A stretch of 64,000 bases of DNA from Phytopythium helicoides (lineage: Eukaryota; Oomycota; Peronosporomycetes; Pythiales; Pythiaceae), in the NCBI GenBank assembly GCA_024867545.1, contig JANFNE010000022.1:1-64000 (forward strand), given 5' to 3'. This document shows, one piece after another, positions 8,832 to 35,467 of this stretch (positions within the stretch are counted from its first letter, which is position 1; every line of letters begins with the position of its first letter). Both the position numbers and the translations under genes were made by a program. The notes under the pieces were generated by a model. It saw only the letters and a program-made list of their open reading frames with translations, did not search any database and was not told where the DNA came from.

Positions 8832-11800
8832 CTACGAGTCCGTGTTGAGGCACAGAGCGACGCCCTGTAACACCCAGTGGCTCGCGTGCTCGTGTGAGAA
8901 CAGGTCGGCCTCGAAAACGAGCCCCACGCCCATGGCGTTGCGCCGCGACTGCGTCACGTACACGGGCGTGCGGAACGTGTTCTGCAGCTTGAGTCGGCTG
9001 GCCTCGATCGGGATCACCTGCAGGATTGGCAACTCCTCGACGAGCTGCTTGGGTCGCTGCGCCGCTAGGCAGCCCTTGTCCAGGTCCCACGACGCGCCTT
9101 CAAGGTACAGTCCACGCACGTAGCACCCGGTCTCGGGCCGCTCAGTCACCTGCGCCTCGTTCGTAAATGACGTCACGCGCGTGTACAAAGTTGACTTGTC
9201 GAGCGACCAGTTCTTGGCTCGACAAGTCGCCTGCACGAGCGCTGTCAGGTACGATTCCGGGATGCCCAGCCCCGAGAGCCACATCACTTTTGGATCTCCG
9301 TGCTCGACCCAGTCCATGTATTGTACGAATCGCTGGGTGAAGTGCTCCATCCAGCTGCCTAGAGGTTTCTCCGTCTTGGGGCACAGATTGCGCCACATAT
9401 TGGGCAAGAAGCCGTCGTACACGGCATTTCCCAGCGCGTCTAGCTCGTCGCTCATGCCAATTTCGCCCACGAGCGCCTTCTGCAAATCGCTCAACGACGC
9501 CGTCATGCGCGCAGTGAGCAGATTCCATCGATCCAATTCCTGCAGGAGCACGACTTGAGTGGGTGTAGGTGTACCGCCCAGCTTCTTGCGAATCAAGTCC
9601 ACGTCTACTTGCTCTGGCACCTTGGACTGAATGTCGCTCGCGACTCCTCCAATATACTCTTCACGAGAGATGCCAGCACCAGATTGTGCTGACCTCGGCT
9701 GTAGCGAGATGAGGTCTCGCCACACGGACTTGGACATATTGGTGTAGTATCCAATCTCGGCATTCGGATGGAGCCCAAACACAGCTGGACTATTGGTCAG
9801 TGGCAGCGTCTCAACCGTGTCGACGTACGTCTCAAGTCGCTGCGGGCTCTTCGTATCCGTGCCGCCGCCAGGGAGGCAGTAGTCAAAGCCAGAGCGACTG
9901 AAGTAGAATCGCTGGCAATCGTCAAACAAAAAGTCACCCATGTACTCAGATAAGTATGTCGTGAGGATGCGACGATCGTAGTCGTCGCTAACACGCCCAC
10001 CATACATGGCATCGCCAATCAAGTACTTGAGAGACCCCCACGGGAGCTGCTCGTCCTTGTCAACGAATGCCTTGTACAAGTACAGACTCAGCAACTTGCG
10101 TGAAATATTGAAATCCGACTCATTGAAATCGTAGCTCACGTTCCAGCCGATTTTGCCGTACTTGCGGCGCTCTAGTACCACAGCATGTAAAAAGCACAAC
10201 ACATACACAAGCGCTTTGAACGACGGGTTCGGACACTCGTCGAGAATTGACTGGTCCAGCTTGGAATACATGCTGCGCATGTTTTGTTTGAGTCCATCAG
10301 GCGGCTCCGTGACGACCTTGAGTGATCTCTGAAGGATACCGAGAGGAAAGCGATCCGTCGGTTCAGTAGTCAACCAAAGTCGGAAGTCCTTATGAGGCTT
10401 GTGCATCGCCAGTAGCATTTTCTCTAGGGTACGTAGCCAGCTAGCGAGTAAATGGCAATTTTGGAGCAGTACCCAGTGCCCGCGGGTGTAGCCTGCCTCA
10501 AGCATTTGCTCAGCAAGTGGCCCTTGACCTTGACCAAGAGCCAAGAACTTAAATCGATGTCCCGAGAAACCAAGCTCATCACCGAGCGTTTGAATATCGC
10601 TTTGAGGATCAGCTCCTGGACTCAAAATGCAGACAATTGGAGAGGTAGGAGCACTTTGATTGTAGATCCGAGCGTAGTCGAGAACAGGTGGCTGGACATA
10701 CTTCTCACCCATCACACTCACGACGAACAGTTTCATAGCATTGTAGACACGATCTTGCCGGAAGCAACGGAATACGAGTAGCTTTTGCAGATCCGACAGC
10801 TTTTCCGAGTAACCACACGGCAACTCGGCAAGTTCGGGTGCTTCAAGGTCGTACCATTGCTTCCACGCGTTCGTATTCTTGGTGAAGTCCTGCAGCAGCG
10901 AGCTGAATGAGTCATTTAGCTTGTTGAGACACAAAAGGTCCTTCCACCCCGCGCCAGACATCCATGTGATTGAATCAGGCTTTGGCTGCGCTGCCGCATC
11001 AAGAGAAGTATCGCCCTTAAGAAAGAAATCGAGTTCGGCACGGTCAAGTTCATCTGCTGAGCTCATGATCATGCACGTCATCTGGAACGAGAACATCAGC
11101 TTGTGACGCTCAAAGATTCCAGTGCAAGTGTAGTCGTACATCATATCCGTGATAGACTGGATCATGAACTTGAGGCGCTTTTCGAGAACGACGTCGCGCT
11201 TGGCATTGTCCAGTGCATTGTAGAAGACGGTGAGAAAGCTGGCGAGAGAGATTTCATACATTTTCATGATGGTAGAGAGCGCTGACATGGCGAAATACAT
11301 GATGGAGCCACGGAGAGCGACTGGTGTATAGACAGCACGTGCCTTGGTGATTTCGTCCTTTGTGAAACTAGACAACTCCAGCTTTGTACCAATCTCTGTC
11401 GCCTTACTCTTTGTTTCATCAAGCGTTGCGATGAGCTCCTCGTTATCCAAAATGTTGCCTGTGCTGTTCGAGAGTTCACGCAGCAGCGTGTCTTCGAGCT
11501 CGACCATCATCTGGGTATTCTCGGACATCTCTGTCACTAGCTCGCGATATTGATCTTCAAGATCAGGACGCTCGTGAGCTACAACAACGTTCAGTAACTG
11601 GTTGGCTAGACCGTTCTGGGTGACACTGTAATTGACAATCATCGTTTTCCCCATAACCTCGGGCGAGTAGTGCGGATTAGCCAATTTAGACGTGAAGTAG
11701 AGGCGGAAGTTTGAGTCCCACTCGACGTTTTTATCACCTAGCTTGATCATCCGCTGCGACCCCTCCATAAACGTACTTTTTTCCAAGACAGGGTCGAGAA

Positions 11801-14800
11801 TGGGGTCGAGCTCTTCGTCAACACTCTCGAACAGGAACGGGTTACCGAATTGGATAGCTAGCTCCAAATGCTTCATAAAGTCCGAGTCGCTCAGTGTTTT
11901 GATAGTCAGATTGTTCTTCTCCTCGCGCTTCTTGATCCAGTTGACAGCTTGTTGCTGCGGATCAATACAAAGCGGGAATCGACTTGCCTTAGTTGTCAAG
12001 ATACCGTTCTGAACTGAGTGTTCGTCCGCTGGTAATCCTTCCGACACCCATTTTTGAATGGTTGCATCATTGGTGAGAGATTTCTCCAAGCGGAAAGGTG
12101 ACGTGACAGGCAATCCGCGCGATTCAATGTCCGAGAAGAAGTCACGATAAACGAGGTCTGAGCGATAATCAAAGCTGAACGCTCCAGCATAACTGAGAAA
12201 GCTCGCAGTCAGTAAGCAGTCACCGGTTAGCCTCTCACCCTGGAGGTGCAACGCCTCGACATCTTTTGTCCATCGGCCTCTCTCCGATGCGAGACCCGCC
12301 AAAAGTTTGCTTGCGGCTTGAAGACGCTTTTGCATTTGGTCTGCTTGTGTCTTAAGCCCCTGAAGCTCTGTATTTGCTCCTTGGAACTGTTGAGACAAGC
12401 TATCGAGCTCAGTTTTGAGACGTGCGAGAGTATCCTTGAGATCTGCAAGCTCTTGCTCCTTCGCTGCTTGCTCTTTCTCCATCGTCTTGACTTTCAGTCG
12501 CAAAGGCTCGACATTCCTTGCTACATCGTAGTATTTGGTGATTGCTACCACCCACACGAGCAGACCGGAGCCAGCCTTGGAGATGGACTTCATGTTTTCG
12601 ACGTTCAAGTCGGGATTTTTGAAAAACGTCTTGATTTTCGTAATCATCTTGGGCGAGATCTTGTCCTTTTCGTACTCTTTCAGCAGCGTGAGAAGGTTGG
12701 GGTTGCTCAGCATGACCTTGGCACCCTTCCAGTCCAGATCGAGCTCTTGGCCTGTGGGTTTGAGAATCAGCACACACATACATACAGACATCACAAGAGG
12801 AGGGGGAGACGCAAAGGACTTGATCTCGGTCAAATCCGCTTTCGAAAGCTCTTGTAGAGCAGCGGCAGCTGCTTCAACCGCTGGTAGTGCCTCGAGCAGT
12901 GCAGCATCAGCCTCTTCTTTTTCACGGGCAATCAGCTCGGACGCCTTCTCACATTCAATCTGCGTAGCAGCAGCAACCTCTTGTTGCTTGGTTGCCACGA
13001 CGGACTTCTCTTCGATTGTTTTAATGAGTGCCTCGCATGCAAGCGTCTTCTCATCCACTACTATTTTCTTTTCTGACAACTCGATTTGCATGCGATCGAC
13101 CGCCTCGGCTGCTTCGACGAGCTTTGCCAAGCCGCCTTTGAGACGCAAGACGCTTGCTGTCACCTTGGCAGTGTTTTCTTTCAGTTGAAGACGGTAGTTA
13201 GCCAGGAAATCAAGGTAGTTCTTGGGAGTAACATAGTAATATCTGCGCAACTCCTCTGCAAATTTGTGTGCAACCTCTACGACGCGTAGATGTGCGTGCA
13301 CTAAGTGATTGGTCACCTGTGCGCGATGAGCGTCCGGGAGTTTCTCTTCCGCTAGAAAATATTGCGCCACACTTCGTAGAGCATCCTCTGGCCACGGGAA
13401 AAACCAGTCAATGACTGTTGCCGAGACGAGGCCTGGGAAATTACGGCATCTTGTTCGCAGGGTGCTCCCCGACGGAGACATTGCCAGCACGATATGCAGA
13501 TTTTGTCGACACAAGTTGACATAGAACTTCCAACAGTTCTCGCTTGTCTCTACGAGCCCTGCGGCTTTTACACGGTCACGAACAGTTGATGATAGTGCAT
13601 CCTTCTCGTCCTGCTCGAATAGTGCAGGGACCATTCCTGTTGTGAGCATGTTGTTGATAAACTCGAGGAAGCCCTCTTCAACAGCGTGAGCATCAGTGAA
13701 CAAGAACACGACAGGTTGCTTTCCCAACTGACGATATAGGTCTTTCAGGTTCTCGCGGAATTCAGTCTCTCCATATCCACGTGTTAGGAAAATCTCAAAT
13801 AGAGAGTAACCTGCTGTGAAGGCGGCGAGGCGGGATAGGCTCTGTTTGCCGCTGCCACCAACACCAATCAAAAGGGCATGACCCAATGGGTTCCGTAATA
13901 TACGGAGGATTCGCGACAGGTGTTCGAGTGCCATCTCAAACAACACGAGCACCATTGGCTTGTTATCCAGGTTGTACGTCTCGAGGGCCTCGTCAAAGAT
14001 GCCACGAATGCGTTTGTAAGACTCCATATCCTGGTACAGCCGTGGGTCTTCGGTAGATTGACCAGTGAGCCGACCAATACAATCGGCGTAATCGCCGAAG
14101 ATAATGGGATCGGCACTTGCATACTCGACTTCCTGTGGAAAATGTGCTTTAAGAATCGTCACGACTGCGCTGTCCACCAATGCGTTGTCAGTAGCGCTTG
14201 TGAGCCGATCGCAGAAAATGCGCTTGATCTCATTTCGCCAGAGCCGCACAATTCCAGCTCCTTTGTCGAACTTATCGGGCGTTGCTAGGCAGATACCCTC
14301 GCAGACTCGTCCAAGATCACGGAGGTTGAAAATGTAATGGAACTTGGATGGCGTAGGCGGTAGCTTTTCGAGTACGAATTCGAAGAGCTGCAACAACGCC
14401 TCTGTCATTCGTGTCCCTTTTTCTTTGATATCCTCGGTGAAATTGCGCAAGTACGTCGTCACGATAGACCCGTAGATCTGTTTGAGCACGTCGCGAGTCG
14501 GAGGTGTCAAGTTGTACACATTGAAGAGCGCGGTGAACCGTGGGTCAACCTGGTTGCGTCCTCCACCCGGTGGTCCCATGGCTCCTATGAACTCTAAATC
14601 CTTGAGAATGCGAAGGTCGAGTTCTTTGCCGCGATCATAGATACTGCCTCGGCTCATCACAAAATGCAGCAGTGCAATTGGCTGCTGAGTGCCGTACAAA
14701 TCAACCTTCGGCATGTTCAGGTCGTCAATGAATATGATCAGTTTCTTTCCGGCTGGAGGACCATAAATCTTGCCGGATCGCTTGTCGACGTTGGCTTGGA

Positions 14801-17800
14801 TGTTTGTCTGCACGTCAAGACTACTTGTTCGACTCGAGAAGTTGATGTTCAGCGCCGAGAATGCTTGTGCATCAAGATCCTTCAGGTAGCTCTGAATCGT
14901 GACCGTTTTGGCAGTGCCGCTTTCTCCAACAAACAAGATTGGTCGCTCGGTTTGCATGCAACGCGCAAGAAGAAAGCTGTAGAGTACCGAATCTGTCGTG
15001 GGAACGAACACGTGCGAGAAATTGAATGGACCAGGCTCGACATACGGTGTCACGCGTGACTCCCACGCCTGCCATTTGTGCGTGTCAGTGTTGTAGAAGT
15101 TCTGGTAAAGGCTCGTTGTAGGCATAGGGCACTCGGCTATCTTCTTCACAAACTCGTCAAATCGTGCGCGACTGGAGCCAAGCAACGCTGCACCAAGCGA
15201 CCAGACCATGCTAAAGATGAAGACACCTTCAACAGCAGACCGATCACTTGCGACGTCCAACTCCGGCGGAAAATATGCATCCAGAGCGTTGCAAAGTTGT
15301 TTGCACATCTCCATATTGCTAACAGGTATAACTTGCTGGCATTTGGCTACGATCTCGTCTTTGCTTATGACACCTTCGAGGATGTAATCTACACAGCGTG
15401 GAACATACTTGTCAAATAGTTCTAGTAACAAGGTTCGCTCAGGCGGAGGTCCTGTAATAGCAGCACCGTCTGGAGATGGCGCTGATGGTGCAGTCGGCAT
15501 AGGATACTTCTTCTTGAGCCACCGCTCATAATACGGTCGATACCCAAGGTTTTTGGGGTCTACCCACACCATACCACAACGACTAATAGTTGCAGGTGAT
15601 GCGTACTGCAGATCAAACGTCTCACAAATCATGCAACAGTGTGTCTGCAGACGAATGCGCTCGCCGTTCGGCAGCGTCAGCAATTTGTTGTCATCCATAA
15701 CACTGTTCATGTTTTCGACCCACACGGCATCCACGTCGCCGTCGTATATGAGCCATCGTTTCTCGTTCTCACGCCCCACAGGCAGCGGTTGGTTCAGCTC
15801 ACGGAAGAGCTTTGAGAGCACTCCATCCGTCCAGTCACGCGTCACAGGATCCATTGTTCCGTACAGCTCTGCAATCGGCTGTGCCTTTGGGTTGAGTACA
15901 AAAATCTTCACAACTTCATCCAACGCCGCCTTTGAAGCGGCAGCCAGTGTGTTAAGTACAAGAGATTTTCCGCCTCCAGTTGGCCCAACAATCATTGTCG
16001 TGTGTCGAACGAGCATCGTTTCGTACATTTGAATGATCTTGTCCACTTGTTCGTTGTACACTCGTGAATCGGTAGTGTTGAACTCACCCGCAACAAGTTC
16101 GTCTTCGATCGCGTCTTTGAGCGCTGCATATCCAACACGTGGACAATCGAGACCCGGAAAAAGGTCGTTGATGAGACCGCGAAACAGTGGCACATCTTCG
16201 AACACGAACTTGGGCATGTTACTGTCTCGCAACGCACGCATGAGCACCAAATCTTCACTCATATCGCTATACTCACGCTTGAGTGCACCCGCCATAACTA
16301 ACACACTCTTTAGCGCACGTAGTCCGAAATCGTAGTGGTACTGCTTGGAGAGCTGCTCTCGAGACAGTTTGTACAGCACGGTCATCTTCTTTGCAAGTGT
16401 GACGGCAAGCTCAAAACCCTCAGAGAAAAGCATGATCTGGCAAATCTGTAGGAGATCTGGCACAATCATTGTTACCGGTCGGAATAGCGCCTTGAGATTG
16501 TCTGGGAGCTCTGTACGGCCGGCGTAGCCTGGGTTCATTGTGATGAAGAACCCACACGTCGCAAACCCTGCCGTCCTGTGAATCGAGATTTCTGTTCCAA
16601 AGCCGATGTCGACCGTCGGCTTATCGTAATTTAAGGCATTCTGAATCGCGCGTAGCTGCGCGGACACAACAGACAGCACTTCGATATTGATGCGGTTGAA
16701 CTCGTCAAAGCAACCCCAGGCACCAACCTGGACTAATCCTGAAAAGATACTGCCCATAGCCTTGTAGTCCAGGCCCTCGCCGCAATTGATAACGTAGCAA
16801 GGTAGTGCAAGTGACTTGGCCAAATCCTTGACGGTTTCAGTCTTGCCTGTACCGGCTGGACCCGCAGGTGAACCACCAAGCTTGAAAGTCAGTGCCTGGG
16901 TGAGCGTCATGTAGCAACGGTCAGTCAGTGGGGTGATGACAAGCCGTCCATTCAACCCCATGTACTCGTAACCGTAGCGAAAGTTGCCCGTGCACTGACT
17001 AATCACGACATCATCTACCTCCTTCTTCCAATAGAAGCGTAGTTGAGATTCCCACGCAAACTCCTTTTCGTGCAGGATGCTGTCACGTACAAACGAATCA
17101 ACAATGTCTCGTGCGTGCACATCAATGATCAGCAGTGTGTTGACTTTCTTTCGGGAAAGCTTAGCGAGTGGCTCCCGCACGCGACGCACAAGTTCGTTTA
17201 GCTGAGTTGTGAGTTTCCCCTCAAGCTCTTTCATGGCGTACTTGTTCCCATTTTTGACCCTCCGAAACACGTCTTCGACTTCCCACGTCCACCAAATCTG
17301 ACTGCCAACAAGACTCACCATACCTAAAACATCGTCAAGCCATTGAATACGGTCATTATTGGCGTACTGGAAAACGCCTTCTTTGGCAATTCTCTGCAGA
17401 GTTACACGCATCTCGTCCTCGACTCCCGTCATCCAGGTCTCAACTGGGCCTTCGACGTTAGATAACGTGCGGAAAGTAAAACTTTCTCCCTCTGCGCTCT
17501 CCATCGCACTGACATTCTTGTTATTGCGAACAAAGGAGAGCAGCTTAACATTATCAAAGAGCTTCAGCATATGGACTTGGATCGAGGTCGGGTCGGAAGA
17601 ACCGAGTACACTCAAGAGTTCATCGTCTGAAATAAAGAAAAACCGTGGAAATGAGTTTCGTTTAGTGTCAAGGTAGTCACTCAGCGATTTTTGACATCTG
17701 TCTAGTCGCTCGGACAGCGAGTGGAGTGTCTCGACACGATTTTCGGCCGTGCATGCCTCTACAGCGTTGGCGTTTTTGTACGTTGCTCCCATGATCGTCT

Positions 17801-20800
17801 TCCACGTTTTGTCCACAGCATCAAACTTCTTCGCCTCCTCCGGCAATTGCTGCCGGATGTCTTCGGCCCCAACGAAGATACTTTCCAGGTACATCCATTT
17901 GCGTTGAACAACAAACCAAATATCGATACACTCATTCACGACACCAAGTTTCTTCTCCCACTTGCGCACACGCTCCGCAAAACTCGCAATAAATCGTGAT
18001 CCCGACATTGTTTGGAGGTTTAGCATGTGGTCCTCCAAGGTTAGCTTGAGTTCGTCAGCTGCACGCAGTACCCAACCGCGATCTGCACCATTCTTCTTGT
18101 ATTTAACAAGCTCTAGCACAGCCTTGGCCCATACGTCTTCAATTTTGATAATTTCCTGCTCGATCTTCTGTTCTTGCATAGCAGCATTCACGATCTCACC
18201 AATTTCTGATGAAAACCGATGCAGCTCCATGGCAAAGAGGTTCCCAAGCGTGAACGTCTTCAGATTCATTTCAAAGCGCACCTTAGTAACCACCATGAGT
18301 TCCTCCCAGTGTCGCGGCTTCATCGCGTCGTTTTTGAGACTCTGAATCAGTGGGATACTATCCTTGAAAGCTGTGATTTGCTTCTCCACTTCAATGAACG
18401 TTGACATCGCTTTGAGGTCCTTCGGAAACTTCCGGCAGCGCTTCTCAAGCTCGTCAATACCCTTGTTCATCGCAGGCACATCGAGCTCAGCCCACAGCAT
18501 GCTTGCTAGATTCCCAATGAACTCCTTTTCTTCGGTGTATAGCGAAAAGATGAGATCTTGCTTTTCAAGTGCCTCTGTGATTTCCTGAAGCTCGGGGTAC
18601 GATGTAATCGGCAATGCAAATAGATTCTCTGCATTTGCAAGCTCTTGTCGCTTGGTTTTGAATGCTGTAAGACGCTTTTTGAACGCTGATACTAACTCTA
18701 GACCTGCATCCAGGTCCGTCGCGCACGTTCCAGGTCCTTTTTCTAGGAACTCCTTCTTCATATCTTTACATTCCTGCGCAAAATTTGATGCGTCTTGCTG
18801 GGTCACTCCACGGAACTGATCCTTAACCCGCACGAGTCGTAGATCTTTGGTCTTGGACGAAACAAACAGGTCTTTCCAACGTTTCTCGAGTGAAAAGGCT
18901 TTTTCGTATTCGGCTGCATCGACCGCGATCGAGTAGGTTTGAAGCGTTCGATACCGTTCAATGATGTCCGCATATTCTAATTCCATTTCCATGCTCATAT
19001 CGCTGATACGTGCAACGGTATTCAGAACCTTCTTCAGTGACTCTAGATCTTGTGGAGTGACGTCCAGCTCGGCCTCGAGTTGATCCATCGCCGCGCTGAT
19101 CGATACAAGCTTCTTGTTGGAGACCTCGAGCAGCACGCGACCATAGTCATCTTTCCACATCTCGGCCTGCTTGGCAATTGCTATAGCCACAGGTAGGCAG
19201 TTGATTTGCAAAAAGTCGGTGTCTTTCTCAGGTGGCTGGCTGCGCACCGATTCTGCTAAACGCGTATACTGCGCCATACGCGTATCAAAGTAGACGCATG
19301 GTGGCTTCTTGTCCGCAAGCTTTTCAAGTGCGCTGCGCCGCTTGGCGTTCCATAGGTTGTACACTGTATCGTATCGCCGCCAACTGTCGAGGTATCGATT
19401 GACGATGTTGAATACCTTGTGAATCTCCTGGTTAAGGGACAGCGTCATCTTGATCACATACGGGTTTTGCGATATATCTGAGTAAAATGTGAATGTGATG
19501 GGTTCTTCATCCTCACTGAGCACAAGTGGCGCTGTCTCTCGACATGTGCCGTGCATCCATCGGATAAAGGCTTTGGCGCTCTCGACAATGTGCTTGACTG
19601 ACTTGCTCAAATACTTGTACATATCCGACAGTGACGGCGTGACGACGATATCTTTACCGTTCATGGTAGTTTTAACCTTACAAAGTGGCGGACGTTTGAG
19701 CTTACTTCCCTCTTCCGACCTACCTCGACTACCACCGCTAAGACCATTCGCAGATGACATACCCATATTCGTGAGTGCGCTACTAATATCCTTGGTGTGA
19801 ACATTTAGCAGCGCTTGGAAAGTGGTCATGGATGCAATAATCATCTTGGTGATGGCGTTGAAGATTCGTCGCTCCCAATACATGTAATATGTCGACATCT
19901 TTGGACTCGTGCCGGTGTTGACACCCGCAACAATTTCTTCGACTTTGATTAGTAGCGGACCAATCGACCGGTAGCTCTGTACGAGATCTTCCAGGCGCTG
20001 CATTCGGTTTCGCTCAACGAGCTCGTAGAATTCGCTAACCTCGGTCACAACGCCTTCTTCAAAATCCTCGATCTTGATCAGCAGAGCATTTTCGATCCCC
20101 CAAACAATTTCTTCGACCATCTTGCTACTTTTGTGAATCTGACTCACAATGTTGGAAAACTGGTTCAGAGCCTTGTTGCAGTTTTCGATGAAGCTGATGA
20201 TGCGCTGGGAGTTCCAGTTGAGAGGTGAAAAGCCAATGCGCAGAACATCCCCAAGGTCTTTGAGCTGAGCCTTGAGCAGATGCGTCTCAACAGGAGAGAG
20301 GTCTGTCAAGAGTTTGTCGTAGTGGCGAAGCATCTGTGTCAGCTCTTGCACATAGTGGTGGTACTTATCCTCCTGGAGAGTGACGTTCAACGCCTCTTCC
20401 GGGATTTCAAAGCCGAGTCGATCCAAATATTTGGACTCCTTGATGATCATCTTGAGCTCTGGTGCAAAGTTGGCATAGAATGGTGGTGGTGGCAGCTTGT
20501 ACATCATGGCACCCGTCTCGGATTTTCCAGCCTCAATCAATTTTGGTCCCAAAATTGACTGCTTGAGGCACTCGTTCGTAAGTGCTGGTACTTTATCCTT
20601 CCAGTCTTTGTGTAATTGCTTGATGTATGCATCCACAGCTCTCGCAAAGGCTAGGTATTTTTCTTTCACCTCCTCTCCGAGAGGGCTTTTGAGCAAGTCA
20701 TTCATGGCTCGGAAGCGCAATATCGGCTTCTTGGCTCGAAGGTATAACGCCCGTGCCCAGCTAATCGCCCCTGCCACAGGTGGGTGGTTCTTGAAAACAG

Positions 20801-23055
20801 GTGGGCTGTGCTTGTACCGCTGAAATTGCTCGTCCAGCCGCTCGAGCTCTTTTGTATATTGCATCAGGATGTCCTTGTACTTCTCCATCATCTGCTTGTT
20901 GATGGACTCGCGCGATTGGATATTCTGAAAGTTCTGTAGCAAATCGAAGGCCCCCTCTGCTGACCGTAATTTCTGGAACGACGTATCAATGAACTTGCGC
21001 GTCATGAGCTCAATTTCGCTCACCTTGTCGCGAAACTGCACCATGACTGATTCCCAGCTAGTCTTGTATCCGCGATCAAAAATCTTGAACGGAACGCTCT
21101 CAAACGGTGCAATGAGACCATCAACGCGAGCTTTCACCTCGTCAATACCGGCAGAGTCTCCCGTGACGGACTTGAGTTCTGGTCCAAGGAACTTGTTGAA
21201 CTGGTCCAAAACAGTAGCGACTTCCTGCAGATTCTCGCAGATTTTGGCCATGTAGTTGGTCTGCTCAAACAGGCGCTTCCGGTCAAACTCCCATCGGTGG
21301 TCCGTACCACTAGCCTCAATACGCTCGCGAACTTTCATGTATGTTGAATGCCAAAGCTCCAACACCATTTTGGCTTCTCCAATCGCCAGCAAAGCGCTCT
21401 CGGGTGTCTTACGTAAAATGGTTTGAATGTTGATCTCCATCGCGACCTTGTCCACAATCTCGGACGCGATTCGCTCCATGAGCGGTACCATACGCTCATC
21501 GGTGTTGTAATGCCGGGAGATGATCCACACCATACGAATTGCATTCATCATGGATGGTAGTGTATCGGCAATGGTCGAAAACGACCCGCTTGCAATGTTT
21601 TTAAAGTGTCGTTCCAGTGTCGTGAGGAATTTGACGTTATCCTTCGCTTCAATGTACAGTTTGCTTAGCTCCGAGAAGTGGTATTTGAAGGTGAGTAGCA
21701 TACTAGCCTCGACGAGTTCGAGCAGTTTGAGCATTTTCTGCACCGTCGGCATGTTGATTTGCTCGTAGATCGTACTGAGCGTAGCGTTCCGCTCACGCCA
21801 AAACTCAATCTCGGCGAGTGGTCCCTTACGCTTTGGCGTTTTGCGGGTCTCCTGTTCGACTACGCTTGCCACGCTCTTGGACCACTCCTCGAGCGCTTGC
21901 TCGAGCGTATTGATCAGCTCGTAGTCATCCAGATGCGACTCGGGTTTGGTGATGACAACTTCGGGGATGTTCAGGTGGATGTCTCCCTGGATTTGGTGGA
22001 TCGCGTTGATGATCTGTGTCGAGAACTTGACAAGGTTGCTCTTGAACTCGCTGCGGATGGCATCGATCACCTTGAGTGCTTGATGCGCGCCTGTCGAAGC
22101 GCTCCCGTTCAAGCTGTTGCTAGAAGACAACAGTGCTTTTGATGAGGATTTAAGCGAAGTTGTCGACTGATTATTGTTGCTCTCAGAGTTCAATGCCATG
22201 TATCCGCTCGAGTCGCCACGTGAGAGGTGCGGGTCGAGCAACGGAACAAACACATGGCAGATGATGCCCTCGAGGTTTGCGAGCAGGTCGCCAGTCGAGC
22301 ACCCAATCTCGATGTTGGAGTGGTGGACTCTCTCAAACGAGTCCTGTAGAGCGCTCTTGACTGCAACGGGTCCCGGGGCCACTTTTATCAAAAACACTGT
22401 CGTCGCCTCGATGAATGCTCCCGGCAGTGCGTTCAGAAAGACGTTGCACACTTGCCGGACCGCCGAGCGTGTCACCATTCGCGTGCGAATGACCGTCTTG
22501 GTACGCTGTGGTAATGCCGTAGTAGCATCAAGGAACATCTGGTCGTCTGTGAGTTGGGTCTGAGCGAAGTCTGCCGCTTGCTGGTCCGCAGGAGGCGCCT
22601 CTCCCTCAGCAGGCGGCTCTTCCTCGTCTGGCACCTCGACCTCCTCCTCGACCTCCTCTGTGTGCGTTGGATTGCATGTGAGCTCCACCCCAATCACAAG
22701 TACTGTGCGCTGTCAAGCCACTCCTGCTGCGTACCTTGTGTCTCAAACTCTTCCTCTGCGAGGCAGAAGAAGAGCACGCTGCCCGCCTCGATCGCCGGGT
22801 CAAAGAACGACCGCGTAATGTCCGCTGGTGCCACGTCCGAGTTGAGCGTCTGGAAGCGAAGAGCGTCACGTCAGCTCCTCCAGCTCGCCTCGTCTCGCCT
22901 CGCCACCAGCCGTCACGCACCTCGAGCTGGTTGTCTGCGCTGCGGAACGACGCGCGGCGCGCCTTGGACGCCAGCATCGCGTCGAACACCGCAGGCTCCA
23001 CGTCCAGCGCGCGCGCCACGAGCCGCCGCAGCCACGCGACCGCCGACTCGTCCAT
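8832..23055 (-). CDS. Axonemal dynein heavy chain, inner-arm DNAH10-like
   Basis: Motor subunit of a flagellar dynein, 4,691 residues. Three exons read on the minus strand: 22921-23055 (start MDESAVAW), 22735-22849, and 8832-22657; the introns are only 71 and 77 bp, both GT-AG, and phases match. The last exon is 13.8 kb without interruption. The AAA+ ring is complete: P-loops GPAGTGKT (AAA1, about residue 2013), GPTGGGKS (AAA2, about 2304), GESGTAKT (AAA3, about 2657) and GVGGSGKQS (AAA4, about 3014), followed by the coiled-coil stalk with the microtubule-binding domain and AAA5-AAA6. The C-terminal cap, with FGLHPNAEIGYYTN and LKLQNTFRTPVYVTQS, resembles DNAH10, the I1/f dynein 1-alpha chain. 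Family and axonemal class are very secure; the DNAH10 assignment is from remembered motifs. The region after exon 2 is an acidic Glu/Pro/Ala-rich linker. Confidence 0.93.
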
Positions 23056-26249: not shown

Positions 26250-26673
26250 GGCGACTGCGGCGGCTACTCTGGCTCGGACGCTCGGGTGCAGAGAAGGCGG
26301 CGGGAGAGCGGTATGATGAGGGCAAGAGGAAAAGCGGTATAATTAGCGCAAGAGGAAACCGACGAGGATTTTTTTATAACTTTGCTTGTTGTTGCGTGCA
26401 AGCTTGAGCATTCTCGATGTGCCGTGACCTCGTTGACAGACGGATGGTACGACCTGAAAATGTGCTGCACACGCATCACGGCCATCACACTCGTAAATGT
26501 AGCAAGCAAAATCTCACTAGCTGCGTGAGCTCAACAGTTCCATCGTCGATGCCACAGTGCTTCTCCTGCTTGTAAAAAGGGGAAGCGTCTGCAGAAGCGC
26601 ATGGCAGTCATGCCCCCTGCTGCTTCAAACCCTGAATGAGCACATCCCAATGCCGCAACTTCATAGCTTTTAT
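26250..26673. other. Upstream region of V-ATPase e, left flank of inverted repeat
   Basis: 424 bp with the V-ATPase e promoter side on the left and the decayed outer edge of the left inverted-repeat arm on the right. A T7 run lies near 26370. I see no gene. A direct copy of GGTATAATTAGC/GGTATGATGAGG-type sequence appears twice around 26310-26350. Confidence 0.35.
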
Positions 26674-29535
26674 GGCGAGCTCCCGCGTCAGCGGTATCAC
26701 ATCGAAAAAGCCCCTAATATCTTTTCAAAGAGTGAGGTTTCCCAGCTTTTTCGGCAATTGCTTGCGGCGAGCATCAAATCCAGCAAACGCATTGCTCATG
26801 CTTTGAACAAACATTGGCGCTAATCTGCGACCATAGCAGAGCATGGAACGCAGTCAGCGCGCAGTCGTGACGTCCATGCTAATTCTATCTTGGTCCGAAT
26901 GGGCTCTGAATACTCGGCGAAGACCGCAAACCCAATAGCGGAGCTACGTAGTCAACAAGTCGACTCGATCTCGACCACGCTCCGATCAAAGCGCAGGCGC
27001 AGCTGCTACTCGACGATGGGTAGTACCGCTTGCATCTGCAGTTGGATCTTGACGATCTCTGTCTGCTCGTAGCCCCACGCCAGCTGCATCAACTTCGATC
27101 AGCGCAAGGAGCAACAGGATGGTGAGGACGTACCGCGTTGGTGGCAGGGACCTGGGCGAGGCTGGCGTCACCAAGTACGAGTGGGAGGCATCGATCCCGT
27201 CGACTGAAATGGATGCCATCAGCGTCTATGCCTCCACCACCAGCATGCATTCGTCCGTCGTTGGGTCGAAAAACTAGTCTGGGTGGAAGCGTAAGAAGAT
27301 GACGGGAACCCCGAGGTCGACAAATAGCTTCACCATTCTCAAACATTCGGCTTCTGGCGAGTGGCGAATTCGTCGGTCTCTAAGATGGCTGCGTGAAAGA
27401 GGAGATACTTCAAGGCATCAGGTCGAAATCCACCCTTCACTCGCTTGCCAAGAATCATGAATGGGAAGAATAGCGTCAGCAATGAGACGAACAGAGATCT
27501 TCGCGAGGATACTGGGAATGTCCAGGCGTGGATTCGGACTCGGCTTCTGGAGAATTTTCTTCATCGTGCTCAGCGCGGTAGCTTAAACAACTGCATAGCT
27601 CTCTCGAGCAAAGCGTGCGGAGATAGCCCTTAGCTTGTATTCATCTCACGAAGCTGGGTGGCTCCGGTTGACACTACTTGAGCATCTTCTGAACGCATTG
27701 CTCGGTGCAGCGGACTTCTTCCCAATGAGGCTGTGACTCACATTGTCTTCAAGTCCCAGATGCACTTGCACTTCTCTAGAGGAAGCGCAGGCGGCATGAT
27801 GCCGATGCCGGTGCCGCCGTTGCGCTGATGCTGCCTTTCGCCGTATGGGGGAGAATACCTGAGCAATGCTGCTTGAATAAGTTGACACGCCTCGAAAGAG
27901 TTCCGCTTCATGACTACCTGGTTGCCCAATATGTGCCATCGTTTCCTTGCATTTCATTGGCTTATAACAATTACTACAGGCCAATCAAATACCACAACAC
28001 GCTTTTGAAATATTTCACCATCTTCGGTAACTTACATGTAGATTACTGACGGAAACATTCCATAAAATATAACATTCGAGACTTATGACTCCTGGGGAGT
28101 CCATTTTAGAGTGTTTTACATATCGGCAATGACATCGGTTGCTAACAGAGCATCCCGTCGCGTGCACAAATCGCGTCCTGTCGCCCTCACGAACGCAGAC
28201 AAGACAGAACCCTCATAAACGGCAGTGCGACAACCACCGATCCAACGTGTCCGTCCGTCCGCCGGACACGACACGAGAGATTCCTCGACGTGCCCGCGCT
28301 CGCCACGCTCATCTCTCTCTCTCTCTCTCTCCCTCCCTCCCTCCTCCTCTGCTCCTGCTCTGCTCTGTTCTGCTCTGTCCCCCATGATCTTCTCGGCGCT
28401 GCGTGTCCACGTCGACCTTCCCCTCGAGGGAGCCTTGCCTTGCCTTGTCTTGCCTTCGTCCGGCCGTCCATCCATCCGAATCGCAGGCATAGCGCTCTTT
28501 GCAAAAGACTCCCTCCGATTAAGGCTGCGGGCCAACCTCTCTTGGCTGCGAGGATTGGCGTGCGAGCCGAGCAACGAGTGGTTGATTGGCTTCGATGACC
28601 CTGACGCGGAGAGCGCCGACGACTGGACTCCGGTCTGGAGGTGTAGCAGGCATCGTCCAATGCAAAGGATAGATCTGCTAAAGCCTAATGATGATGGAAG
28701 GCCAAGGCTTTGTAGAGAGGTCCACGAGCATTGGGGGTCCTCCTCGTCACAAGCAACACACCACCGTCGGAAAGCAACCGCGATCCATCTCTCGTGGTCA
28801 CGCAGCACGCAATCACAAACACATGCAAGCGTCTCGACCGACTGCATCGACATATAGGATAGATCGCAGCACTTGAAGCTGCTGCAACCAGCTGCACAGT
28901 AGATATCTATCTACATAGCTCCCTTGCAGGGAGCGGCGCAAGATCGCCCCCGTTTCAGTACGTTACTCGGTGCAGGTCCAAAGCCTTTTACCTTGATCGA
29001 TGTATGCCGCATACTGAAAGGCAACATACACCATGACTTGTGTGCTCTGCTGAAGGACAACAACGGCTTGGCTTGGACGCAGACCACCATCTTCCTCCTC
29101 CTCGCGCTCTCTCTCTCTCTCTCTCGGTGGTGCGGCGCTGTCCGTGCGTCACGGAGCCCGCCCGCGACGTTGCACTAGTCGTCATTCGATGTCCATGCCG
29201 AGTCGCTCGAGTCGCTCGCTTGGTGACCAGCGTGGTGCTCGAGGTGGCCAACTTCAATAACACATCGTGGATGTCGAGTACTGATGCTGACTAACATCGA
29301 TTTCTGCACCAAGTAAACGGCGCCGCACCATGCGACCAGCGAACGTTCGTGTCTCCAAGCGGCATGAGATGCGCTGGTGTAGCTATCTGCAGCGGATCGG
29401 CGCGCGGCGGGCGCGAGTGAGCTGCTCCGGGGTCTGCATGGCGCCGAAGGAGGTCGGAGTGGCTGACTGGCTGGCGTCTTGGTGCATGGTCCAGTATTGA
29501 GGGTATGGTTCTTGACTGTACTAATGCAGTACATG
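26674..29535. repeat. Left arm of a ~2.85-kb inverted repeat
   Basis: Reverse-complement copy of 32114-34949. The innermost match starts exactly at the shared stretch CATGTACTGCATTAGTACAG (right arm orientation). From about 27000 to 29535 the copies differ only at scattered bases and small indels, for example a 2-nt difference near 28147 (TGTTAGC against TTAGC in right-arm orientation) and a single base near 29415. The outer ~350 bp (26674-27000) is much more diverged, with indels of 30-45 nt. The arm holds a (TC)n tract near 28311-28331, a (CT)n tract near 29108-29126 and a TAGATATCTA palindrome near 28900. Several overlapping reading frames exist on both strands, but none has convincing coding character; reading right-arm-sense DNA gives protein-like pieces interrupted by stops (such as VIFLRFHPD followed by a stop), suggesting decayed coding or mobile-element sequence. 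Confidence 0.9.
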
Positions 29536-29756
29536 ATCATCTGCGCCACATACAGATTCCATTACTAAATAGGCTCCGCCGCACGATCTATCCACAGTCG
29601 TGCGCTTCATGGAGAGCTTGACGCATTTTGCTAGAGCGTGTGGTGATGAATGGAATGGAATGCAACATCATGTGTGGTATGGAAACAGTGACAATTATTA
29701 CTGAATAGGAGCGGGGGAGCTTCGCCATGCCCCGCTAGACGACTCGCGGCTGACGT

Positions 29757-31310
29757 CTACTGGCGCGAATCAATCTCGGACGCGAGCTTGTTCTCAAGCA
29801 GCATGTGGTTCTCCGCCGGGAGACCCACGCACGCGCGGAACAGGTTGAGCATGCACTCACGCTGCGCAAAGAGCGCGTTCACGACGGGCGTGCCGCGCGG
29901 CACAAGCGGCGCCTTGAGCATGTAGCTCAGCAGCGACAGCACCGAGTGCAGGCGCTCAAAGCCAGCGGCGCCCTCCTTCTTCAGCTGGATGCGCTCCGCG
30001 ATCTCGCACACGATCACCAGGTCCAGGATCAGTGGCGTCGCAAGCAGCGAGTCCTCGCACGTGTTGTGCATCGAGATCGTGTTGTTACCGTTCATGAAGA
30101 TCTTGGACGTGTACTCGTCCAGCGCGCGCTTGCTGTCGCCCACGAATGGCACGTACTTGATGACCACGACGTGGTCAGGGTGCTCGTTCTCCTTGTACAG
30201 CAGCTTGTTGGACGCAACCATGTCGTCGACAACGTTCGACTTGGAGATCTCCTTGGAGCGGAACTGCTGAGGCGCCGACAGGTTCTTGCCGTCGTTGTTG
30301 CCCAGGTGGTTGTAGCTCACGATCGACGTCGGCTTGATACCGGCGGATACGAGGAAGTCCACGAGCACCGACTTCATCTTGGTCTGGCCCGACTTGAAGT
30401 CATCACCGCCGATGAACACGTTCTTCTCCTCTGCGAGGTCCATCACGCCCGGCACGAACGTGTTCTGCGGGCTGCCGTTGATGTACGAGCAGCCCTCAAG
30501 GATGGACGCGACGGCGAAGATGGTCGAGGGCGACACCTCGTCCTCACCGGCACGGATCGACTCGAGCAGATTCGCCGACGTGTCGTTGACACCCTCGATA
30601 ATGTCCGAGAAGCGCTCCGTGTTGGCCGACCAGAGCACGATGACCTTGTCGAGACCATTGCTCTGCTTGAAGTCGCGGATCTGCTGGCGCACCTGGTCGA
30701 GGTTCTCCTGCTTGGAGCCCTTGAGCAGGTTGTCGGCGCGGTCCGCCTGGTTCGCGGCGATGAAGTCCGGGTAGTAGATGGAGGGCAGCGGCTTGATGTT
30801 CTCCATGAGCGGCACGAGCTGGCGCTGCAGGTCGAAGTCGAGCACCTTGGCGCGCTTCATGGCCTCGGCGAGGTTGAGCGAAGAGATGTCCCATCCGCCG
30901 ATGACGAGGTCGTTCGGGTGCACCATGGGGAGAATGTTGGAGAAGGGGATGTAGACGCCCTCGCCGTTGGCGTTAGTGCCGAGGCGCACCGTGGAGGCCT
31001 GCGTGACGGAGCCGAAGTAGTTGGGCGTCTGCACGCCCTCCTTGGTGGTCCACGACAGGTTGTTCTTGTTGGCGAGCACACTGGCCACAAGCGTGGAGCC
31101 GTTGTTGCCGCCGATGCCGACGATCATGACGCCGAGCTTGGGCACTGTGCGCTTGGTCTTGATCTCGTACTTCTCGACCACGGGCGTGGCCACGTTGCCC
31201 TCAACCTTGGTCACCGTGTAGTCGTACTTGGCCACAATCTCGTCGTCCGTGTACGTCACGTTGGGGCTGTTGACCGTGAAGGGCTCACGCAGGAACGCCG
31301 ACGAGGCCAT
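29757..31310 (-). CDS. INO1: myo-Inositol-1-phosphate synthase
   Basis: Converts glucose 6-phosphate to 1D-myo-inositol 3-phosphate using bound NAD; first and committed step of inositol synthesis, feeding phosphatidylinositol and phytate. 517 residues, the usual eukaryotic length, in a single exon. The NAD-binding loop GIGGNNGST lies at about residues 65-73; the [15 protein letters not shown] stretch, the [11 protein letters not shown] loop and the family signature [14 protein letters not shown] (about 325-340) are all present, as are [16 protein letters not shown] and the Lys/Arg residues around the active site. I chose the ATG at 31310 ([11 protein letters not shown]) because the open frame upstream to 31484 is a Lys/Pro/Arg-rich read-through of the GC-rich 5' UTR. 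The gene lies alone in the loop between two large inverted-repeat arms. Confidence 0.97.
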
Positions 31311-32113
31311 CTTGACTGGGCGGGGCTTGGCTTGGCGGGGCTTGCTTGGGGCTTGGCGGATTCGGAAGTGAGCGTCCTCTGCTCCCTCCGCCTGCGGACC
31401 AGAGCGCGCGGCGCGATGGCTGCGGCGGCTGTCGACGACGGCGACGCACGCGACGCATCCCCTTGCCGCAACGGACGCGGACAAGATTTTGGCTGGGGGT
31501 TTGTATGCCGCATAGAGAACTTCAACTGCGCCTGGCTTGCGCGGTTTGTTACGTGGCGGTTAGGATGACATCTTGACGTTTGTATGCCGTGAGGTGAAAT
31601 GCATCGGCTCTGACGTGGCCGGAGCTGTGGCATCATCTGGCGGCGCCGCGCCAGGTTCGATGTCATCACCGCACTCCCTCACGGAGCCGTGTGCGACAGC
31701 AGGACTGCAGGATGCGCTCGCAGGATGCGCTCGTAGGATGCGCTCGCACCGCGTTCCCGTCGAGCACCCACCCACCCGGCCGCGCTTCTAGAAAAATCCA
31801 GGCATGAACACGCCATTGAGGTGCTGTTGACCAACAACCGCGACGTGGATTCGACGTTCGATCATTCGACGCTCGGTACTGGGTGCCGCGATGGATGCAT
31901 TGCTTTCCTGAAGGCGTCGAGCACGTATGACCCCCTTCCTCTAGACTCTAGAACGTTCCATTCGGATCCACCTCGAGCGAAAGCAGTTGTACTCGAGTCG
32001 ACTGCAGCAGCCAGCAAGCAGAGCGAGTGATGATGCTCGGCGACCATCAGCAATGGCGTGTGGCGTCGTCGTCAATCGCGTTAAGGTCGATCGAGGTCGA
32101 GACGGTATTGTTC
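31311..32113. other. INO1 5' region and loop side of the inverted repeat
   Basis: About 800 bp upstream of INO1 with no supported gene. Next to the start is a G/C-rich CTTGG-repeat tract (31321-31361). Further up is a short tandem array: AGGATGCGCTCG three times at a 13-nt period (31709-31746). The region ends where the right inverted-repeat arm begins. Confidence 0.5.
31709..31746. repeat. Three-copy 13-nt tandem repeat
   Basis: AGGATGCGCTCG occurs at 31709, 31722 and 31735, with the 13th base varying (C, then T). It lies about 400 bp upstream of the INO1 start codon. Confidence 0.8.
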
Positions 32114-34949
32114 CATGTACTGCATTAGTACAGTCAAGAACCATACCCTCAATACTGGACCATGCACCAAGACGCCAGCCAGTCAGCCACTCCGACCTCC
32201 TTCGGCGCCATGCAGACCCCGGAGCAGCTCACTCGCGCCCACCGCGCGCCGATCCGCTGCAGATAGCTACACCAGCGCATCTCATGCCGCTTGGAGACAC
32301 GAACGTTCGCTGGTCGCATGGTGCGGCGCCGTTTACTTGGTGCAGAAATCGATGTTAGTCAGCATCAGTACTCGACATCCACGATGTGTTATTGAAGTTG
32401 GCCACCTCGAGCACCACGCTGGTCACCAAGCGAGCGACTCGAGCGACTCGGCATGGACATCGAATGACGACTAGTGCAACGTCGCGGGCGGGCTCCGTGA
32501 CGCACGGACAGCGCCGCACCACCGAGAGAGAGAGAGAGAGAGCGCGAGGAGGAGGAAGATGGTGGTCTGCGTCCAAGCCAAGCCGTTGTTGTCCTTCAGC
32601 AGAGCACACAAGTCATGGTGTATGTTGCCTTTCAGTATGCGGCATACATCGATCAAGGTAAAAGGCTTTGGACCTGCACCGAGTAACGTACTGAAACGGG
32701 GGCGATCTTGCGCCGCTCCCTGCAAGGGAGCTATGTAGATAGATATCTACTGTGCAGCTGGTTGCAGCAGCTTCAAGTGCTGCGATCTATCCTATATGTC
32801 GATGCAGTCGGTCGAGACGCTTGCATGTGTTTGTGATTGCGTGCTGCGTGACCACGAGAGATGGATCGCGGTTGCTTTCCGACGGTGGTGTGTTGCTTGT
32901 GACGAGGAGGACCCCCAATGCTCGTGGACCTCTCTACAAAGCCTTGGCCTTCCATCATCATTAGGCTTTAGCAGATCTATCCTTTGCATTGGACGATGCC
33001 TGCTACACCTCCAGACCGGAGTCCAGTCGTCGGCGCTCTCCGCGTCAGGGTCATCGAAGCCAATCAACCACTCGTTGCTCGGCTCGCACGCCAATCCTCG
33101 CAGCCAAGAGAGGTTGGCCCGCAGCCTTAATCGGAGGGAGTCTTTTGCAAAGAGCGCTATGCCTGCGATTCGGATGGATGGACGGCCGGACGAAGGCAAG
33201 ACAAGGCAAGGCAAGGCTCCCTCGAGGGGAAGGTCGACGTGGACACGCAGCGCCGAGAAGATCATGGGGGACAGAGCAGAACAGAGCAGAGCAGGAGCAG
33301 AGGAGGAGGGAGGGAGGGAGAGAGAGAGAGAGAGAGATGAGCGTGGCGAGCGCGGGCACGTCGAGGAATCTCTCGTGTCGTGTCCGGCGGACGGACGGAC
33401 ACGTTGGATCGGTGGTTGTCGCACTGCCGTTTATGAGGGTTCTGTCTTGTCTGCGTTCGTGAGGGCGACAGGACGCGATTTGTGCACGCGACGGGATGCT
33501 CTTAGCAACCGATGTCATTGCCGATATGTAAAACACTCTAAAATGGACTCCCCAGGAGTCATAAGTCTCGAATGTTATATTTTATGGAATGTTTCCGTCA
33601 GTAATCTACATGTAAGTTACCGAAGATGGTGAAATATTTCAAAAGCGTGTTGTGGTATTTGATTGGCCTGTAGTAATTGTTATAAGCCAATGAAATGCAA
33701 GGAAACGATGGCACATATTGGGCAACCAGGTAGTCATGAAGCGGAACTCTTTCGAGGTGTGTCAACTTATTCAAGCAGCATTGCTCAGGTATTCTCCCCC
33801 ATACGGCGAAAGGCAGCATCTGCGCAGTAGCGGCACCGGCATCGGCATCATGCCGCCTGCGCTTCCTCTAGAGAAGTGCAAGTGCATCTGGGACTTGAAG
33901 ACAATGTGAATCACAGCCTCATTGGGAAGAAGTCCGCTGCACCGAGCAATGCGTTCAGAAGATGCTCAAGTAGTGTCAACCGGAGCCACCCAGCTTCGTG
34001 AGATGAATACAAGCTAAGGGCTATCTCCGCACGCTTTGCTCGAGAGAGCTATGCAGTTGTTTAAGCTACCGCGCTGAGCACGATGAAGAAAATTCTCCAG
34101 AAGCCGAGTCCGAATCCACGCCTGGACATTCCCAGTATCCTCGCGAAGATCTCTGTTCGTCTCATTGCTGACGCTATTCTTCCCATTCATGATTCTTGGC
34201 AAGCGAGTGAAGGGTGGATTTCGACCTGATGCCTTGAAGTATCTCCTCTTTCACGCAGCCATCTTAGAGACCGACGAATTCGCCACTCGCCAGAAGCCGA
34301 ATGTTTGAGAATGGTGAAGCTATTTGTCGACCTCGGGGTTCCCGTCATCTTCTTACGCTTCCACCCAGACTAGTTTTTCGACCCAACGACGGACGAATAC
34401 ATGCTGGTGGTGGAGGCATAGACGCTGATGGCATCCATTTCAGTCGACGGGATCGATGCCTCCCACTCGTACTTGGTGACGCCAGCCTCGCCCAGGTCAC
34501 CGCCACCAACGCGGTACGTCCTCACCATCCTGTTGCTCCTTGCGCTGATCGTAGTTGGTGTGACTGACGTGGGGCTACGTGCAGACAAAGATCGTCAAGA
34601 TCCAACTGCAGACGCAGGCGATGTTGCCCATCGTCGAGCAGCAGCTGTGCCCGCGCTTCGACCGGAGCGTGGTCGAGATCGAGTGCGACTTGCTGAGTAT
34701 GCAACCCCGCTATTGGGTATGCGGTCCCGCCAAGCTCATTCGGACCAAGATAGAGTTAGCACTACCTACTGGATCAACTTGACAGCATCTGCATGGACGT
34801 CACGACTACGCTGACTAAAGCTCTGCCGTGGTCGCACATTAGCGTCAATGCGCGATACGTTTGCTGTTTGCTGGATTTGATGCTCACCGCAAGCAAATTG
34901 CCGAAAATCTCCCATTTCGATGTGCTACCGCTGATGCGGGACCTCGCCG
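32114..34949. repeat. Right arm of a ~2.85-kb inverted repeat
   Basis: Mirror image of 26674-29535. The inner 2.5 kb is nearly identical to the left arm, including the (AG)n tracts near 32522-32541 and 33318-33338. The outer end is diverged: around 34756-34790 this arm has about 32 nt absent from the left arm, flanked by GCA, and near 34910 it lacks about 45 nt that the left arm has. Recognisable similarity ends near 34949 (CGGGACCTCGCC against CGGGAGCTCGCC). As in the left arm, reading frames are many but none is convincing; the 34579-34740 stretch reads well (KIVKIQLQTQAMLPIVEQQL and onward) while the matching left-arm stretch has a stop, consistent with a decaying gene. Confidence 0.9.
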
Positions 34950-35467
34950 TTTGAAGCAGCGAGTAAAGCTACATGTACGCCGCGTGCGCACTCAAGTCCT
35001 GTCAACGAGGATGCAACAACAAGAAGGAGTATTGGCCTCCAGGTAGTCCACCGAATGACTTCCGGGTAGTCTGTAACCGACGGAAACCGGTACCCTGTTG
35101 TGGGATTCCTTGAAGCGGACACCGTGTTTTGGCACCAGCCCCATGGGAGGAGTATACGTAGTATAGTATACATAAAGTATACTTCATGTTCCAGAACACG
35201 GTGCAAAGCGGGACTTTTCGGCGCATGTGATTGGCCGGCCGATGCTCTGGACCACCAATCCGATACGCCGAAAAGTCCCGCTTGTTTTGACTACCAGGTA
35301 CGACTAGCAGGTAGTCGTAACACATTCGTAACACGTATTGTGTGCCCCACACGAAGAGCCACGTGGCCGACACGCTCGCTCGATCTTTTCGACCGAAAGC
35401 CGCTCGCATTCCCTCCCGTTCCCACTCGCCGTCGCTCCGTCCTCTTCCTCCTCCTCTAGCACCACCC
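34950..35467. other. Intergenic region with MITE-like element
   Basis: 518 bp between the right inverted-repeat arm and RAMP4. It holds the hairpin-rich element at 35039-35298 and then about 170 bp of ordinary sequence, with C/T-rich stretch 35400-35460 directly before the RAMP4 start, which is likely its core promoter or 5' UTR. Confidence 0.45.
35039..35298. mobile_element. Candidate MITE with imperfect 12-bp TIRs and two internal hairpins
   Basis: The ends match in inverted orientation at 10 of 12 positions: CCAGGTAGTCCA (35039-35050) and TTGACTACCAGG (35287-35298). Inside are two hairpins. The first pairs 35121-35132 with 35191-35202 (11 of 12) around an AT-rich core rich in GTATAC. The second is a perfect 18-bp stem, AAGCGGGACTTTTCGGCG at 35206-35223 with its complement at 35266-35283. 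No transposase frame is present and I see no clear target-site duplication, so the element call is inference; the hairpins themselves are certain. Confidence 0.45.

Follow-up and report, generated by a model that had tools for sequence, protein, structure and literature searches.

The window analysed here comprises the first 64 kb of contig C16 (860,687 bases), which belongs to an oomycete genome of 49.06 Mb in 100 contigs. It contains the gene INO1, encoding a myo-inositol-1-phosphate synthase of 517 amino acids in a single open frame. INO1 is located in the loop of a long inverted repeat, composed of the following features (positions in the window):

26675-27161, plus strand: left arm, diverged outer part (global alignment)
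27162-29535, plus strand: left arm, inner part, probably homogenised (global alignment with the reverse complement of 32114-34485)
29517-29533, no strand: hairpin of 17 nt with a 6-bp stem and a 5-nt loop (read by eye)
29536-32113, no strand: loop of 2578 bp, holding INO1
29757-31310, minus strand: INO1 (Pfam matches PF07994, 5.5e-144, and PF01658, 2.3e-38)
32114-34485, minus strand: right arm, inner part, probably homogenised (BLASTN, repeat search and global alignment)
34486-34948, minus strand: right arm, diverged outer part (global alignment)

The window was compared with itself by BLASTN. The sole non-self match at E <= 1e-10 is the inverted pair 26748-29535 / 34907-32114, which displays 96.1% identity over 2814 columns; chance is excluded because a match of this length has an E value of 0.0. 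Arm columns were counted in a global alignment of both arms, where the homology extends outward to about 26675 / 34948. The repeat search delimits arms of 1389 nt (28147-29535 / 32114-33502, one mismatch in the global alignment) and, outside them, a second arm stretch of 1186 nt at 98%. The two arms are thus present in inverse orientation on one molecule of the assembly. The first-pass annotation had positioned them outward from 29535 and 32114, with INO1 alone in the loop. BLASTN and the global alignment bear out these positions, and INO1 is indeed the only ATG-started ORF of at least 200 amino acids in the loop, which leaves 803 bp upstream of this frame and 221 bp downstream of it. The hairpin stops 2 bp short of the inner end of the left arm and has its mirror copy at 32116-32132.

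Beyond the arms, the flanks show no mutual match in the BLASTN self-comparison or in the global alignment. The right flank carries a short dispersed repeat (35037-35150, with matches on C49, C7 and C24) and a palindromic, MITE-like dispersed repeat (35189-35283, with matches on C46, C24, C9, C59 and C27).

The homologue search with INO1 yielded 7996 scored candidates, of which 7311 pass E 0.001. In the 120 matches listed of these 7311, the named oomycete homologues are 77-88% identical to INO1; the best named ones, at 87-88% among the matches listed, come from Pythium oligandrum, Plasmopara halstedii, Phytophthora infestans and Peronosclerospora sorghi, among others. Other database sequences reach up to 96% identity among the matches listed. 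Judged by INO1, the genome is that of an oomycete related closely to Pythium. No second full copy of INO1 was found in the 49-Mb genome. The segment C24:59687-59921 was rejected as a second gene, being a match of 66 residues only (43% identical) whose frame is interrupted by a stop codon. With 73% DNA identity over 243 columns, this segment looks like an INO1 relic.

Identity and coding content of the arms

The arms had been described as near-perfect. This description suits the inner 2.37 kb (27162-29535), where 2364 of the 2372 aligned bases are identical (99.66%), with eight mismatches and one 2-bp indel. It does not suit the outer ~0.49 kb, where identity falls to 359 of 429 aligned bases (83.7%) and 91 gap columns are distributed among 6 indel events. 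From the outer end inward, the identity is 77.6% at 26675-26878 (121 of 156 columns), 84.2% at 26879-27002 (96 of 114), 86.1% at 27003-27110 (93 of 108) and 96.1% at 27111-27161 (49 of 51). In the inner part, four of the eight mismatches are clustered within nine bases (27818-27826), and the 954 columns of 28147-29100 contain no difference. In the inner arms, both (CT)n tracts are as long on the left as on the right (20/20 and 18/18 nt), as expected under very recent copying. At 99.66% against 83.7% in the outer part, the inner part is much more similar than a duplication of this age should be.

The ORFs of the arms were scored with a codon model trained on 13 ORFs, INO1 being left out of the training set. 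The ORFs of at least 60 amino acids located wholly inside the inner arms obtain scores from -0.55 to +0.04; by comparison, INO1 scores +0.69 and the 13 training ORFs score from +0.28 to +0.85 on their own model. The inner-arm frames score as non-coding and were rejected as genes. The outer frame 34564-34779 scores +0.34, which is consistent with the pieces of carrier and dynein genes that it spans (see below). Ten arm ORFs were compared with Pfam: nine are without a family at E <= 1 and the tenth has one weak match (E 0.21). Two of these ten ORFs lie on the carrier and dynein pieces; Pfam therefore misses such pieces, which are named here after the C46 and C58 genes that their DNA resembles. 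For the longest ORF of the inner arms (297 aa), 1621 candidates yielded no homologue at E <= 0.01, and the ORFs 33694-33906 and 34065-34226 match, at E <= 1, the arms alone.

Searches in the genome itself rank the best candidates only, and the DNA search is not exhaustive (it missed the relative on C25, later found by protein search). Within this scope, the DNA query 27150-29535 matches just the two arms at E <= 1. The arms were accordingly rejected as a repeat family, the inner arm having no third copy in the genome. They were also rejected as a known RNA, with no Rfam match across the window at gathering scores.

Decayed gene copies in the outer half of the arms

In their outer half, the arms consist of decayed gene copies joined into a mosaic, all of them pointing the same way (along the plus strand in the right arm). 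The order C25-type gene, mitochondrial carrier, dynein is the same in both arms, reversed on the left:

26410-26551: dynein scraps of the left flank (matching C46:1382973-1383282 and 1387752-1387782)
26621-26878, minus strand: decayed dynein heavy chain piece, left arm (75% DNA identity to C46:1394030-1394292)
27003-27160, minus strand: decayed mitochondrial carrier piece, left arm (73% to C58:158787-158952)
27272-27658, minus strand: decayed C25-type gene copy, left arm (position derived by mirroring the right-arm alignment)
33989-34375, plus strand: decayed C25-type gene copy, right arm (DNA and protein matches to C25)
34487-34644, plus strand: decayed mitochondrial carrier piece, right arm (75% to C58:158787-158952)
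34733-34957, plus strand: decayed dynein heavy chain piece, right arm (match to C46)

Among the best-scoring candidates, the same combination of C25-type, carrier and dynein pieces occurs nowhere else in the genome.

The C25-type copy of the right arm displays 69% (33989-34093) and 63% (34145-34375) DNA identity to C25, and its protein match reaches 70% of amino acids over 47 query residues (E 4.7e-14). On the left arm, protein matches are located at 27363-27503 and 27262-27369. The family is small and divergent: 12 matching rows correspond to 10 places, both arms included, and the members outside C16 are C25:398101-399200 and seven further places. Two members lie back to back within 1.2 kb on C24. 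The gene belongs to no Pfam family, and none of 37 candidates is homologous at E <= 0.001. From its motifs, it may resemble the PD-(D/E)XK nucleases of large viruses.

The carrier piece has the structure exon, intron, exon when read by eye, and the C58 ORF that it matches contains Pfam PF00153. The step in identity at 27111-27161 falls inside this piece, or at its edge. The original duplication did not end there, since both arms share the carrier piece.

The C46 frame matched by the dynein pieces contains Pfam DHC_N2 and AAA_6. The right piece is 72% identical to C46 across 34733-34907, followed by a further match of 40 columns at 34919-34957. Some scraps of the left flank match the C46 dynein locus outside its large open frames, near and past the 3' end of the dynein gene as judged by eye. 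The decayed copy therefore seems to be genomic rather than spliced.

With the C46 dynein as outgroup, the right arm retains about 30 bases missing from the left arm, and the left arm retains stretches missing from the right arm. These dynein-derived bases, private to each arm, indicate two genuine old copies rather than a mirrored assembly; the divergence of the outer part is then the decay of real copies. The first-pass annotation had named an assembly artefact as the result that would overturn the repeat. Such an artefact could be a mirrored contig, a chimeric fold-back read or polishing that equalised the arms, and the almost identical inner arms, with equal (CT)n lengths too, would agree with it. 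Mirroring cannot yield the observed differences, namely the dissimilar flanks, the diverged outer arms, the private indels and the distinct dynein-derived bases. This objection is largely answered; over-polishing of the inner arms is possible. We consider an artefact as very improbable.

Long inverted repeats around a gene, with pieces of host genes in the arms, also resemble fold-back or Pack-type mobile elements that capture genes or fragments, here INO1 or the gene pieces. Other copies with the same ends were not found, the DNA search at E <= 1 having shown no third copy of the inner arm. The outer ends are moreover ragged: the left dynein piece overruns the shared arm end by about 50 bp, and further scraps continue outward. 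A mobile origin is extremely unlikely.

Origin of the arms and possible inversion of the loop

The earlier suggestion that the arms recombine with each other is supported, since similarity is much higher between the inner than between the outer arms. The locus probably arose by an old inverted duplication, after which gene conversion from arm to arm recently homogenised the inner parts. The whole ~2.85 kb would once have been duplicated in inverse orientation around INO1, since both arms share the order of the pieces. The outer 0.49 kb would then have diverged to ~84% (70 mismatches in 429 columns), and ectopic gene conversion would have recently homogenised the inner 2.37 kb that adjoins the loop. 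Gene conversion would be the simplest cause because no coding signal explains the identity by selection on a protein; selection on non-coding sequence is possible. A tract of 2.37 kb is long for a single conversion event, which weighs against this explanation, conversion tracts in mammals being usually of a few hundred bases (PMC3961182). Several conversion events, or one copying event, would be expected to leave the same 2.37-kb pattern.

The main rival is a duplication in two steps, where just the outer pair of ~0.5 kb is old and a break-induced or template-switch event, anchored in this pair, recently copied the adjoining 2.37 kb across INO1. The change of identity is fairly sharp (from 86% to 99.7% over a 51-bp step at 96%), as such an event would leave it, and the single-pair status of the inner 2.37 kb and the small hairpin at the inner arm end point in the same direction. 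However, the C25-type piece in the near-identical part is itself decayed (63-69% to its relative) and continues the outer mosaic in the same orientation, and inspection by eye showed no junction signature. The evidence does not firmly distinguish the two explanations; we consider the two-step duplication as rather unlikely and retain homogenisation by gene conversion.

If the arms exchange sequence by conversion, crossovers between them may flip the loop as well. Such an inversion could be neutral for INO1, as the 803 bp upstream and the 221 bp downstream would move along with the gene. Flipping of INO1 and small RNAs from the hairpin are both possible. The stronger proposal, where INO1 belongs to an invertible cassette in which continuing recombination both preserves the identity of the inner arms and flips the gene, with both orientations present in natural populations and double-stranded RNA of the arms perhaps tuning INO1 expression, is unlikely.

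The arms could alternatively form a functional hairpin locus, where their transcription gives long double-stranded RNA and small RNAs and where selection keeps their identity. The genome encodes RNA-silencing domains, with six RNase III matches in four places, three Piwi matches, and three RdRP matches in one place. Two Pythium species are likewise reported to have genes for Dicer, Argonaute and RdRP (PMC10080066). In Phytophthora infestans, inverted repeats are described as strong sources of small RNAs, transposons and genes having 4.6-11.4 times fewer small-RNA reads per Mb (PMC3804510). However, an RNA containing both inner arms would cross INO1 and exceed 7 kb, and no trans target is evident, as the inner arm has no other DNA match in the genome. 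A hairpin function as the reason for the identity is highly improbable, and conversion between the arms is preferred here too.

Other inverted pairs and comparison with known systems

A near-identical inverted pair around one gene had been presented as uncommon. The examples collected here are convenience samples (214 kb of C16, and parts of C42 and C22) and not a census. The C16 sample contains three inverted pairs, the INO1 arms included, made up of four matches at E <= 1e-10. The first of the other two is a pair of DUF7492 genes (C16:120078-120847 / 126752-127497), inverted and 94% identical over 770 columns, the Pfam match coming from the one member scanned. Their loop of 5.9 kb contains other frames. 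The cores of the two genes are near-identical and their tails have diverged. We take DUF7492 to be lytic-polysaccharide-monooxygenase-like. The last pair consists of an element with a hAT-type transposase domain (C16:151168-155418) and of its internally deleted inverted copy (117930-118952), about 32 kb away and 97-98% identical in two pieces. On C42, two Argonaute genes (452229-456122 / 499109-503002) are inverted, ~46 kb apart and 96% identical over 2561 columns. This match may be longer, since it stops only ~30 bases before the compared pieces do. A pair of RNase III genes on C22 is inverted but diverged, with short patches at 67-81%. The DUF7492 and Argonaute pairs weaken the claim of rarity as far as near-identity in inverse orientation is concerned; neither these two nor the RNase III pair has a single-gene loop, as far as was looked.

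Two other features of C16 were recorded. A tandem array occupies C16:192661-206356; its unit measures 1.69 kb and is repeated about eight times at ~99% identity or higher, and the two copies looked at have an open frame of 401 amino acids. In the window, positions 8832-22538 contain an uninterrupted open frame of 4568 amino acids on the minus strand.

In the open-licence literature, searched by title and start of abstract, we found no report of an oomycete locus of this type. For the study of gene conversion between inverted repeats, the INO1 locus provides a compact test case from an oomycete: a single pair of copies offers both diverged and probably homogenised sequence at one locus, and related genes elsewhere in the genome serve as yardsticks. 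If the loop flips, a core metabolic gene would be shown to tolerate recurrent inversion, which would be relevant to the assembly and comparison of oomycete genomes.

Three known systems can be compared with this locus. As in the case of the small-RNA inverted repeats of Phytophthora, the arms are from an oomycete whose genome encodes silencing domains. The Phytophthora repeat pin-IR2758 is a 714-nt inverted repeat (PMC3804510), whereas the loop of INO1 measures 2.6 kb and contains a protein gene. The second system is that of human inversions mediated by inverted repeats, which are polymorphic and recurrent and include HsInv0389 (PMC3961182). Like HsInv0389, the INO1 locus has inverted repeats around gene content; both orientations were genotyped in the human case, whereas the INO1 loop is seen here in the orientation of the assembly. 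The inverted segment of HsInv0389 contains FLNA and EMD. The third system is represented by the palindromes of mammalian sex chromosomes. Contrary to these, the INO1 arms are short, have no intact gene, are homogenised, on our reading, in their inner part only, and have no known sex-chromosome location. In X-chromosome palindromes, arm identity above 99% is described as maintained by gene conversion (PMC8981503), and the inner arms of INO1 are likewise more than 99% identical. The INO1 locus thus appears to be a local case of a known genome structure, the long inverted repeat homogenised by gene conversion.
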